Below, one piece after another: positions 20,954 through 32,421 of a stretch of DNA of 46,263 nt (the first letter of the stretch is position 1; the number at the start of each line of letters is the position of its first letter). This stretch comes from Flavobacteriales bacterium (GTDB taxonomy: Bacteria; Bacteroidota; Bacteroidia; Flavobacteriales_D; Cryomorphaceae). The notes beneath the pieces are model-generated. The model saw nothing but the letters and a program-made list of their open reading frames with translations. It made no database searches and was not told the DNA's origin. The translations under genes and the position numbers were made by a program. Location of the stretch: assembly GCA_007125175.1 (NCBI GenBank), contig SLDS01000130.1, forward strand, positions 1-46,263, written 5' to 3'.

Positions 20954-20989
20954 AAAAAAATCGTCTCCAAGGAGACGATTTTTTTTTTT
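20954..20989. terminator. Bidirectional Rho-independent terminator
   Basis: A GC-rich stem TCGTCTC / GAGACGA (20961-20967 with 20972-20978) has loop CAAG. It is flanked by A7 on the left and a long T run on the right, so it can terminate transcription from both sides. It lies between the convergent coiled-coil gene (plus) and radical SAM gene (minus). Confidence 0.92.
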
Positions 20990-28641: not shown

Positions 28642-28809
28642 GGGTAAGAATTTTGGATTTTGATGTAATGATAACCGAAAGTTAAGTTTCTTGTTCGCCC
28701 GAGCTGAGGAATTAGGTTTTTTTAGAGATTTTCATGGAGTAATCTTTGCTCGCTGAGATGTCTTTGCCTTCATTTTTTGCTTGGGGTTCGCCATATGGGA
28801 TTGCCTCCT

Positions 28810-28817
28810 TACTTTTG
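28810..28817 (+). promoter_or_regulatory. Candidate -7 element TACTTTTG before the MORN-repeat gene
   Basis: This exact TAnnTTTG match lies 57 bases before the ATG at 28875. It lies inside the frame if a longer start at 28746 were used, which argues for the shorter start. A TTCG 19 bases upstream is a poor -33 match. Confidence 0.42.
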
Positions 28818-28874
28818 TCTCGCAATTATCCGGGCCGCATTGCGTTGATGTGCTCACGAATCTCTATCCCGTTC

Positions 28875-30527
28875 ATGTACCTGTCCAAAAAGCATTTTTC
28901 CAGAGGTGATTTCGGCCTCATTGTTTCACTGTTATTTTTTTTATGCCTTTCGGCAAAAGCCCAGGAAGCCCTTGTCCTGCCACAGGAGCCATACAAGGAA
29001 TACTGGGATGCGGCAGCTAAGCAAGTCAAGACGGAGGGCTCATACCTTTGGGGAAAGGAGCACGGTACATGGTACTATTTTGCGAGAAACGGAGCAATCG
29101 AAGAGGAGCGCAACTACTCCTTCGGTCGCCTGCAGGGCCCTACCCGAACCTTTTTTGCGGACAGCGTATTGTCGCGTGAGGCTTTTTTCACCTGGGATGA
29201 GCTCGATGGGCCTTATCTGCGCTACTACCGCGATGGCAAGCTGAGGGAGAAAGGCAGCTATGCAAAGGGCAATAAGCTGGGCCGCTGGCAGTATTGGTAC
29301 CCCTCAGGACAAGAGCATATGGTAGAAGAGTATATAGACACTCAGGATAAACCCTTGCTCATGGCTTTCTGGACACCCGATGGACAAAAGCTCATTAGCG
29401 GTGGCAATGGTCGCATGGAGGAGCACTATGCCAATGGGCAACTCAAATCGCGCGAAACTTACACCGCAGGCCGCATGACGGGCCAATCGGAAACCTGGTG
29501 GCCCCAAGGCAATTTGCGCAGCAGCGGCAGCTATCAAGACGGATTGAAGGAAGGAAGCTGGGAGTACTACCTCGAGTCCGGAGAGCAGTGGAAAACCAGT
29601 ACTTTCAAGGCCGATACCCTGCATGGCCCTTACACGAGCTACTTCGAAAACGGACAAAAATCCGAGGAAGGCCAATTTGAAATGGGGCAGAAGCAGGGTA
29701 AGTGGATATTTCATCGGGAGTACGAGTACAAGGAAATGGAAGGCCGCTTTGAACGCGACCTGCGCGAGGGCCTTTGGCAATATTGGCATCCCAATGGCAA
29801 GCTGCAGAGTGAGGGCCGCTTCGGGAATGACCTGCAGGAGGGTGAGTGGAAAAGCTACTATCCCGATGGCTCCTTATGGAGAAAGGGTGAATATGCTGCC
29901 GGACAGAAGCACGGGGATTGGACCACATACTTCGAGAATGGACAGAAGCTACAGGAAGGCTCCTATCAGCATGGCCTGGAAGATGGTCTGTGGAAGAGTT
30001 GGTTCAAAGACGGCAAGCAATCCGATGAAGGGCATTTTAGCAAAGGCTTGCTCGATGGCTCCTGGCGGGGCTGGTTCCCAAATGGGCAAAGACGCTATGA
30101 GGGTTCATGGAGCAAAAATCAGAAAAACGGCCAATGGAAGCACTGGAATGAAGATGGCCGACTCATTGAGAGTGCTAGCTACAAGGAGGGCAAGCTTCAC
30201 GGCAGTTTTTCTGAGTACAGTGAGCATGGCAGCCCGATTCGCCAAGGCAATTACCGCGATAGCAAGCCCCACGGTACCTGGATATACTTTTTCCCGGAAG
30301 GGGGAAAACAGAGGGAATGCAGCTATAAGGATGGCAAACTCGAAGGCGAAAGCACCATCTACCACCGCAGGGGCGGACACCCCCAATTGGTAGAGAAATA
30401 CCGCGACAACAAGCGCCACGGTATTTCCTCAGAATACTCTCCGGGAGGCAATTTGCTCAGATCGGTCGAGTACGAAAATGGGCGCAAAGTGAAGGTGGTC
30501 AAAGACAATGTGCTCGGTGGACGCTGA
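28875..30527 (+). CDS. Secreted MORN/YwqK-like repeat protein
   Basis: The 550-aa protein starts at 28875. Here the N-terminus MYLSKKHFSRGDFGLIVSLLFFLCLSAKAQ is an ordinary signal peptide, whereas the open frame back to 28746 is not. The whole mature part is about 20 imperfect repeats of about 23 residues of the form G-x-W-x-x-[YW]-[YFW]-x-x-G-[QK]-x-x-x-[EA]-G-x-[YF]-x-x-G-x-x-[HE] (for example HGDWTTYFENGQK, DGLWKSWFKDGKQ). This matches the MORN_2/YwqK family. Such beta-hairpin arrays form long twisted sheets and may bind partners. Annotation as a toxin antitoxin is common for this family but unsupported here: no toxin gene adjoins. Confidence 0.88.
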   Translation: MYLSKKHFSRGDFGLIVSLLFFLCLSAKAQEALVLPQEPYKEYWDAAAKQVKTEGSYLWGKEHGTWYYFARNGAIEEERNYSFGRLQGPTRTFFADSVLSREAFFTWDELDGPYLRYYRDGKLREKGSYAKGNKLGRWQYWYPSGQEHMVEEYIDTQDKPLLMAFWTPDGQKLISGGNGRMEEHYANGQLKSRETYTAGRMTGQSETWWPQGNLRSSGSYQDGLKEGSWEYYLESGEQWKTSTFKADTLHGPYTSYFENGQKSEEGQFEMGQKQGKWIFHREYEYKEMEGRFERDLREGLWQYWHPNGKLQSEGRFGNDLQEGEWKSYYPDGSLWRKGEYAAGQKHGDWTTYFENGQKLQEGSYQHGLEDGLWKSWFKDGKQSDEGHFSKGLLDGSWRGWFPNGQRRYEGSWSKNQKNGQWKHWNEDGRLIESASYKEGKLHGSFSEYSEHGSPIRQGNYRDSKPHGTWIYFFPEGGKQRECSYKDGKLEGESTIYHRRGGHPQLVEKYRDNKRHGISSEYSPGGNLLRSVEYENGRKVKVVKDNVLGGR

Positions 30528-30626: not shown

Positions 30627-30656
30627 TTGTTAGCTGAAAAAGAATAACTACCTTTG
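30627..30656 (+). promoter_or_regulatory. Promoter of the rimP-nusA-infB operon
   Basis: TTG at 30627-30629, a 19-base spacer and TACCTTTG at 30649-30656 match the Bacteroidota sigma-ABfr consensus TTG-N19-TAnnTTTG in both elements and spacing. Transcription should begin near 30660-30663, just before the hairpin at 30678. Confidence 0.75.
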
Positions 30657-30677
30657 CGGCATAAAACGAATGAAATC

Positions 30678-30704
30678 AGAGGGGCCGAAGCCCCTCTTTT
30701 TATT
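30678..30704 (+). promoter_or_regulatory. Terminator-shaped leader hairpin before rimP
   Basis: AGAGGGGC (30678-30685), loop CGAA, then GCCCCTCT (30690-30697) form an eight-pair stem followed by TTTTATT. It starts about 15-20 bases after the expected transcription start and ends before the TTG that best fits the RimP N-terminus. It has the form of an intrinsic terminator or attenuator; a 5'-stabilising hairpin is the alternative. Confidence 0.7.
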
Positions 30705-30711
30705 GCCTGTA

Positions 30712-31179
30712 TTGATCACCGAAAGCCACATACGAAAGCTCCTCGAGGAGAAAATTACCGGTAGCGACTACTACGTACTGGGCATCGATATCAAGCCGGG
30801 CAACGTGATACAAGTGGAGCTGGAGAGCAGTGGTCCGGTGAGCATTGAAGACTGTGTGGCCTTTAGCCGGCAAATTGAGCACAACCTGGACAGGGAGGCC
30901 GAAGACTTCTCCTTGCAAGTGAGCTCCCCGGGCCTGGACAAGCCCCTGCGCGACCCCAGGCAATACAAGAAAAACGTGGGCAGGGAGCTCAAGGTGTGGA
31001 TGCCCGATAGCAGCGAGCTGGAAGGGGAGCTTACCCAAGCCGATGAGGAGGGCTTTACACTGCACAGCCGCCGGAAAGAAAAGCAAGAAGGAAAAAAAAA
31101 CAAGGTATGGGTGGAGCGGGATCACCGCTTGAGCTACGCCGAAATACAACAAGCCAAAATCAAGATCAATTTCAAATAA
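30712..31179 (+). CDS. rimP: Ribosome maturation factor RimP
   Basis: RimP assists 30S subunit maturation. Motifs: the N-terminal helix ITESHIRKLLEEKI, IEDCVAFSRQIEHNLD, FSLQVSSPGLDKPLRDPRQYKKNVGR (conserved EVSSPGxDRPL type) and the C-terminal SH3-like barrel ending IKINF. The longest frame starts at ATG 30670, but its first 14 codons (MKSEGPKPLFLLPV) are encoded by a terminator-like hairpin. They have no counterpart in the family as I know it. Starting at TTG 30712 gives 155 aa, the usual length. It is the first gene of rimP-nusA-infB; nusA starts seven bases after its stop. Confidence 0.9.
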   Translation: MITESHIRKLLEEKITGSDYYVLGIDIKPGNVIQVELESSGPVSIEDCVAFSRQIEHNLDREAEDFSLQVSSPGLDKPLRDPRQYKKNVGRELKVWMPDSSELEGELTQADEEGFTLHSRRKEKQEGKKNKVWVERDHRLSYAEIQQAKIKINFK

Positions 31180-31185
31180 GAAGCC

Positions 31186-32421
31186 ATGAGCAATATTAAT
31201 TTGTTCGATTCTTTCGCCGAGTTCAAAGAATTCAAAAACATCGACCGGGAAACCATGATGCGCATCCTGGAGGATGTATTTCGCAGTATGCTCATCAAAA
31301 AGCACGGTACTGACGATAACTTCGACATCATCATCAACCCCGATGAAGGTGACCTCGAAATATGGCGCAACCGCGAAATCGTGCCCGATGGTGAAGTAGA
31401 GGACGAGAACAGCCAAATCGCTTTTTCGGATGCCATCAAGATTGAGCCCGACTTTGAAGTGGGTGAGGAAGCCACCGAGGAGATACGTCTCGAGCACTTC
31501 GGGCGCCGCAGCATTCTCTCCATGAGGCAGAACCTTGTGGCCAAAATCATCGAGCTGGAAAAAGACAGCCTTTACAAAAAGTACAGTGAGCGCGTTGGAG
31601 AAATCATCACCGGAGAGGTATATCAGGTGTGGAAGCGCGAGGTGCTATTGCTCGACGATGAAGGAAATGAACTGATTCTACCCAAATCGGAACAAATACC
31701 CTCCGATTACTTCAAGAAGGGAGACGCCGTGCGTGCTGTGGTGGCCAAAGTGGAAATGCGCAACAACAGCCCCGTGGTTATCCTCTCCCGTACCGCTCCC
31801 GAATTCCTGGAGCGCCTCTTTGAGATGGAAGTGCCCGAAGTATTTGATGGACTCATTACCATCAAGAAGATTGTACGTGTGCCGGGAGAGCGTGCCAAAG
31901 TAGCTGTAGAAAGCTACGATGACCGCATTGATCCCGTAGGGGCATGCGTAGGTATGAAAGGTTCGCGCATACACAGCATCGTGCGCGAGCTCAAAAATGA
32001 GAACATCGACGTAATCAACTACACCGCCAACTTGCAGCTGCTCATCTCGCGCTCGCTCAGCCCGGCCAAGATTACCAATATCAAGATGGACGAGGAAAAC
32101 AAAAAGGCCGAAGTATTCCTCAAGCCCGATCAGGTATCTCTAGCCATTGGCAAGGGTGGGCACAATATTAAGCTCGCCAGCAAATTAACCGGATATGACC
32201 TCGACGTGTACCGCGAAACGGATGAAGACGAGGAAGATGTGGATCTGGAGGAATTTGCAGATGAGATTGATGGCTGGATCATCGACGAGTTGAAAGCCGT
32301 TGGATTGGACACCGCGCGCAGCGTGCTCGAACTGTCCAAAGGCGACTTGGTGTCCCGCACCGACCTCGAGGAAGAAACCATTGAGGAAATTTTTAAAATC
32401 CTGCGAGAGGAGCTTGAATAA
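31186..32421 (+). CDS. nusA: Transcription termination/antitermination factor NusA
   Basis: NusA binds RNA polymerase and modulates pausing, termination and antitermination. The 411-aa protein shows the N-terminal RNAP-binding domain (about 1-130), the S1 domain (GEIITGEVYQVWKREVLLLDD) and KH1 with GACVGMKGSRIHSIVRELKNENIDV. KH2 contains VSLAIGKGGHNIKLASKLTGYDLDVY. A short acidic tail with one helix-hairpin-helix-like unit ends it. It lacks the extra C-terminal repeats of E. coli NusA, normal for this phylum. It lies between rimP and infB in the conserved order. Since NusA can act on terminators, the rimP leader hairpin is a possible feedback site (inference). Confidence 0.96.
   Translation: MSNINLFDSFAEFKEFKNIDRETMMRILEDVFRSMLIKKHGTDDNFDIIINPDEGDLEIWRNREIVPDGEVEDENSQIAFSDAIKIEPDFEVGEEATEEIRLEHFGRRSILSMRQNLVAKIIELEKDSLYKKYSERVGEIITGEVYQVWKREVLLLDDEGNELILPKSEQIPSDYFKKGDAVRAVVAKVEMRNNSPVVILSRTAPEFLERLFEMEVPEVFDGLITIKKIVRVPGERAKVAVESYDDRIDPVGACVGMKGSRIHSIVRELKNENIDVINYTANLQLLISRSLSPAKITNIKMDEENKKAEVFLKPDQVSLAIGKGGHNIKLASKLTGYDLDVYRETDEDEEDVDLEEFADEIDGWIIDELKAVGLDTARSVLELSKGDLVSRTDLEEETIEEIFKILREELE

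Follow-up and report, generated by a model that had tools for sequence, protein, structure and literature searches.

Among the described systems that come closest to the element analyzed here is the rimP-leader, an attenuator reported by Naville and Gautheret in 2010 with NusA as the proposed effector (PMC2965389). In Bacillus subtilis, NusA-stimulated termination in the leader autoregulates nusA (Mondal 2016, cited in PMC12288461); NusA favors folding of the hairpin within the RNA exit channel, and its effect is greatest on terminators that are weak or interrupted (PMC12288461). In Escherichia coli, rimP is preceded by two terminators and the operon is under NusA regulation (PMC6511841); the terminator nearest to rimP is GGGCTTTAGGCCCTTTTTTT, with GGGC..GCCC and seven T residues ahead of a TTG-started rimP. 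From Flavobacterium psychrophilum, a structured 5′ element has been reported that lies upstream of rimP, is transcribed, is conserved in Flavobacteriaceae and has no Rfam match (PMC9723704). It concerns the same gene in the same phylum as the element studied here; in the main text of that paper it is a list entry only, is not called a terminator, and its scope is one family. The rimP-leader was already described in 2010 (PMC2965389), and that NusA autoregulates through termination in the leader is prior knowledge from B. subtilis (PMC12288461); what is new relative to the literature, as far as these papers show, is the phylum-wide extent of the element with rebuilt stems and its fate in a lineage without rimP.

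The locus lies on a 46,263-nucleotide contig of a Flavobacteriales bacterium (SLDS01000130.1, in the following the window), with the promoter, the hairpin and rimP-nusA-infB all on the forward strand. The original prediction had described a promoter of the form TTG-N19-TACCTTTG, an eight-pair hairpin with a CGAA loop and a U run in front of rimP, and each of them was found exactly where it had been placed. The −33 element TTG (30627..30629) and, at a spacing of 19 nucleotides, the −7 box TACCTTTG (30649..30656) form a promoter of the Bacteroidota sigma-A type with the consensus TAnnTTTG (PMC9723704). In F. psychrophilum this box has been mapped to positions −12 to −5 (PMC9723704), and applying the same placement to the box in the window yields a predicted start site at about 30661, followed by an A-rich, unstructured 5′ leader of 17 nt (30661..30677). 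The hairpin (30678..30697; arms AGAGGGGC-CGAA-GCCCCTCT, then TTTTATT; about −15 kcal/mol) begins 17 nt past the predicted start site and ends 14 nt before the TTG start codon of rimP at 30712. With the U run TTTTTATT (30697..30704), a 3′ end is predicted near 30700–30702; termination there would yield an RNA of about 42 nt, in which the hairpin is the sole structure (−15.4 kcal/mol upon folding). Only two such hairpins occur on the + strand of the window, this one and another at 20955–20984; the latter is a bidirectional terminator between convergent genes, and apart from these two no strong intrinsic terminator was found in the window. The combination of promoter box and GNGGGG-N6-CCCCTC occurs a single time in the 3.35 Mb genome. 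Directly 5′ of the rimP promoter, positions 28746–30527 encode a 593-aa protein that consists largely of MORN_2 repeats.

The arrangement is conserved across the class Bacteroidia, more often than chance would give. A strict terminator scan, which required a stem of at least five pairs, at least four of them G-C, and a U run within the 120 nt 5′ of rimP, was positive in 121 of 127 distinct Bacteroidia rimP leaders. The corresponding controls were empty (0/127 upstream of nusA, 0/127 inside rimP, 0/125 at −600 and 0/127 shuffles), and the opposite strand gave hits in 25/127 leaders, as is expected from the A-rich flank 5′ of the stem. Five leaders were negative even in a looser scan, and a stem is still visible in them by eye. 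In one of the five, a member of the Rikenellaceae (L137, rimP match at 2501), the stem TTAGGGGAC..GTCCCCTAA is kept and no U run follows; here, the terminator may have been lost or may work otherwise. Of 122 leaders, 92% have a strict TAnnTTTG box 8–35 nt 5′ of the stem, versus 2.3% at random points. The 5′ leader between predicted start site and stem has a median length of 21 nt in the class and an A content of 45%. The MAFFT alignment of all leaders lost register owing to unequal loops, and covariation was therefore counted on 31 sequences with an equal loop length (8-5-8). In this subset, 99.2% of the cells are paired and compensatory double changes occur in seven of the eight stem pairs; since the sequences were chosen by structure, which favors pairing, the double changes carry more weight than the percentage. 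None of 500 shuffles matched the observed covariation, and when the partner columns were slid by one, pairing fell to 57–61%. The class consensus is GAGGGGAC..GTCCCCTC, and covarying stems are exemplified by GAGGGGAC/GTCCCCTC, CAGGGGAC/GTCCCCTG, TAGGGGAC/GTCCCCTA and GAGGCACG/CGTGCCTC. Covariation of the stem and its retention in close relatives, which the original prediction had named as its check, are thus both in evidence.

Stem and start codon are separated by 8 to about 110 nt, a distance that falls into all three reading frames (35, 41 and 46 of the Bacteroidia leaders, respectively). Because the distance is spread over three frames across the class, the hairpin is not coding, and because it varies this much, a terminator fits better than a mask of the ribosome-binding site or a coding sequence. 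The same numbers bear on the idea that the hairpin senses nothing and is either a constitutive partial terminator that fixes a low output of a strong promoter or a 5′ hairpin that stabilizes the mRNA or tunes its translation. The hairpin is indeed simple and strong, and in many species it ends 10–20 nt before the start codon, as such a function would have it. However, neither the variable distance nor the conserved U run, which is unnecessary for mRNA stability or for masking of a ribosome site, suits an mRNA-stabilizing or translation-tuning role, and a weaker promoter would provide a fixed damper more easily, so that a terminator conserved to this extent would be surprising. We therefore consider a non-sensing hairpin improbable.

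Outside the Bacteroidia, the terminator remains and its sequence changes. In 40 genomes from other classes of the phylum (L139–L178), a rimP terminator was detected in 27 by the strict scan and in the others by eye, e.g., as AGTGAGCGTCGAAAGGCACTCACTTTTTTTT, which contains an internal mismatch; the strict scan of a control stretch in the same 40 genomes gave no hit. The stems are unrelated to each other (AAGTGGGG..CCCCACTT, TCGCCCG..CGGGCGA, ATAGCCCG..CGGGCTAT, AAGTCCCGC..GCGGGACTT), and in some families it is the 5′ arm that is rich in C. The conserved feature is a terminator at the rimP-leader position rather than a G-rich motif. In agreement with this, a covariance model built from the Bacteroidia stem was rejected as a specific detector: it matched ordinary terminators in every genome, and the element is consequently defined by position rather than by sequence. 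The pattern GAGGGG..CCCCTCTTTT was searched for in 60 genomes; more than half of the sites lie at rimP and the remainder resemble ordinary terminators. A second copy in the window's genome (C227:10604–10625) was likewise dismissed as a leader, as it lies within a 78-nt gap, shortly after the stop codon of a gene, and resembles an ordinary 3′ terminator. One family (f32; L146, L148, L149, L152, L154, L163, L168 and L169) has an interrupted rimP terminator, AGTGAG-C.A-GTC-GAAA-GGC, with a GNRA-like loop in most members; interrupted stems of this sort are NusA-dependent in B. subtilis.

Set against the rimP-leader of 2010 (PMC2965389), the element of the Bacteroidota occupies the same place in the same operon, the 5′ UTR of rimP-nusA-infB. 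The G-rich 5′ arm, C-rich 3′ arm (GGGc..gCCC) and U run described there are found in the hairpin of the window, both elements lack an antiterminator or a larger conserved structure, and in both the stem is highly conserved within clades. Distances from terminator to start codon are also comparable, with 4–130 nt reported in that study and 8 to about 110 nt in Bacteroidota. The two differ in that stems in this phylum do not always follow GGGc..gCCC and in that the groups named in the main text of PMC2965389 are Firmicutes and Gammaproteobacteria, with no mention of Bacteroidetes. The conservation of the stem was used in 2010 to argue for a protein that recognizes a motif; as classes differ in stem sequence, this argument is weakened. 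Rfam holds an RNA leader of rimP as RF01770 (a model of 102 positions with a gathering threshold of 47 bits), which gave no match at the rimP locus of the window even at E ≤ 10, and a scan of Rfam at gathering and relaxed thresholds returned no relevant family. The element is therefore not a member of RF01770 as modeled. The B. subtilis nusA operon likewise has an intrinsic terminator in its leader; there, the leader is 180 nt long, far longer than the roughly 20 nt that precede the stem in Bacteroidota, and NusA dependence was demonstrated, whereas we infer it for the Bacteroidota.

That the leader is an attenuator, as originally predicted, is supported by the geometry of promoter, hairpin and start codon and by the conserved, covarying stem found across the phylum. 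The promoter precedes the hairpin and the 14 nt up to the start codon leave no room for another promoter, so that every rimP-nusA-infB transcript must cross the hairpin, whether it begins at this promoter or further upstream. RNA polymerase starting at about 30661 would reach hairpin and U run after some 40 nt, before any rimP codon has been transcribed, and would then either release the RNA of about 42 nt or read through into rimP-nusA-infB. The leader paired with the 5′ arm, as an antiterminator would, no better than shuffled sequences did (−0.66 versus −1.15 kcal/mol), and a leader peptide would have to fit into the approximately 17 nt that separate start site and stem, in a frame that is not conserved. 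With neither a fitting leader peptide nor a visible antiterminator, the decision would have to lie with factors that ride on the polymerase. Among these, NusA is the best candidate; it is encoded by the second gene (31186..32421; NusA_N, S1 and KH domains, Pfam and NCBIfam TIGR01953) and is presumed to be both sensor and regulated product. Abundant NusA would stabilize the hairpin and increase termination, while polymerase would pass when NusA is scarce. We conclude that the leader probably contains an intrinsic-terminator attenuator by which NusA limits expression of its own operon, with termination and the response to NusA both predicted.

Several observations count against this reading. The stem is strong and canonical (−15 kcal/mol), unlike the weak or interrupted terminators that NusA favors in B. 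subtilis, and no feature of it marks specificity for NusA, as is apparent from the covariance model that matches ordinary terminators. A genuine attenuator could also respond to another input acting on polymerase, such as NusG, ppGpp, NTP supply or the rRNA antitermination machinery, rather than to the level of NusA. Given the short leader of 6–29 nt ahead of the stem, without antiterminator or leader peptide, any polymerase-bound factor could serve, and as the stem varies by class, no sequence-specific RNA binder is needed. We nevertheless regard such another signal as unlikely. In B. subtilis, nusA is known to be autoregulated by termination in its leader (PMC12288461), in E. coli the operon is under feedback from NusA (PMC2965389, PMC6511841), and where rimP is lost the hairpin goes with nusA.

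The last point rests on a single family. In Bacteroidia, rimP and nusA are adjacent in 138/138 loci and therefore cannot be told apart as the target of the element. In family f41, which belongs to a different class (L186–L191, L198, L203 and L216–L218, representing seven genera), none of the 11 genomes, 96–100% complete, gave a match in a search with PF02576 (RimP_N), compared with 49 of the 50 other genomes of the same order. RimP, a conserved factor of 30S maturation, has been lost in f41 or has diverged beyond detection. The operon is headed by nusA, the genes upstream are unrelated and mostly divergent, and infB is retained. The hairpin stands directly 5′ of nusA in all 11 genomes, in ten by scan and in G229 by eye on account of its larger loop. 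A U run follows the stem, examples of which are AATGGGCTGTATGCCCATT, AATGGGCAGAAGCCCATT, AACGGGCAATTGCCCGTT and GGGCGGAAGCCC. In the rimP-bearing sister families, the scan located a similar stem, mostly AUGGGC..GCCCAU, just before rimP and 507–648 nt upstream of nusA in 17 of 22 loci, the other five being negative; none of the 17 has a second terminator between this stem and nusA. In this natural experiment, which provides the strongest of the new evidence, the element follows nusA.

RimP itself might be the feedback signal, as it is encoded first in the operon, binds rRNA and could bind the hairpin, a possibility raised in PMC2965389. Since the hairpin is kept before nusA without RimP, a role of RimP as sensor is nearly excluded and NusA is likely; with the leader kept in 11/11 genomes in which RimP is undetectable, the idea is largely refuted for f41, and the inconstant stem sequence between classes also speaks against it, so that overall we rate it as highly improbable. 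The loss of rimP in f41 was probably one event, which provides many replicates of retention and one experiment; retention of the hairpin beside a shared promoter may in part reflect inertia, and the retention of infB alongside nusA counts against assigning it to NusA alone. The original proposal was that the leader senses NusA or elongation status; NusA as the product sensed has gained independent support through the hairpin before nusA in f41, while termination and NusA control in this phylum keep the status of predictions. The f41 genomes thereby contribute evolutionary evidence on the question, raised in 2010, of which gene product of this operon is served by the leader. Whether the element is an attenuator of the whole phylum that has diversified by class, in which a bare terminator tied to nusA is the entire sensor of NusA activity and the stem is rebuilt in each class, we consider an even call; the readout of NusA would then be the termination step itself, without a recognized RNA motif. 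The element extends the most widespread predicted attenuator to an entire phylum with unusual promoters and unusual translation initiation.

The start codon of rimP deserves attention because the longest open frame begins further upstream, at an ATG (30670..30672) that would turn the hairpin into codons 3–10 and add MKSEGPKPLFLLPV to the N-terminus of RimP. The original prediction had instead taken the TTG at 30712 as the real start, and the evidence agrees with it. In frame, RimP homology (NCBIfam PRK02001) starts at this codon, with PF02576/PF17384 and PRK02001 matching from residue 2 of the resulting protein (30712..31179), as is also seen in the alignment; nusA and infB (IF-2, TIGR00487, 32470..35163) follow as the second and third genes of this essential operon for transcription and translation. 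In none of seven family relatives (the relatives named for the window are Cryomorphaceae/Flavobacteriales genomes) does the RimP frame contain an ATG in the stretch from the start site to the hairpin; two of them (L004 and L006) have a stop codon between hairpin and start. That the ATG at 30670 opens the longest frame is all that speaks for it as the real start, with the hairpin as mere coding sequence; in view of the relatives lacking such an ATG, the two in-frame stops, the start of homology at 30712 and the frame that is not conserved across the class, we take the chance of this to be negligible and regard the ATG as an annotation trap. As a small correction to the original prediction, an additional in-frame TTG lies at 30703, within the tail of the U run. 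An in-frame ATG ahead of the hairpin is present in 15 of 115 leaders of the class, and automatic start calling can thus, as had been suspected, absorb the rimP-leader element into the RimP coding sequence, a warning for annotation in general. In all family relatives read (L001–L008), RimP starts with TTG or GTG. The rimP gene of E. coli is likewise annotated from a TTG, and the weak start may itself contribute to control.
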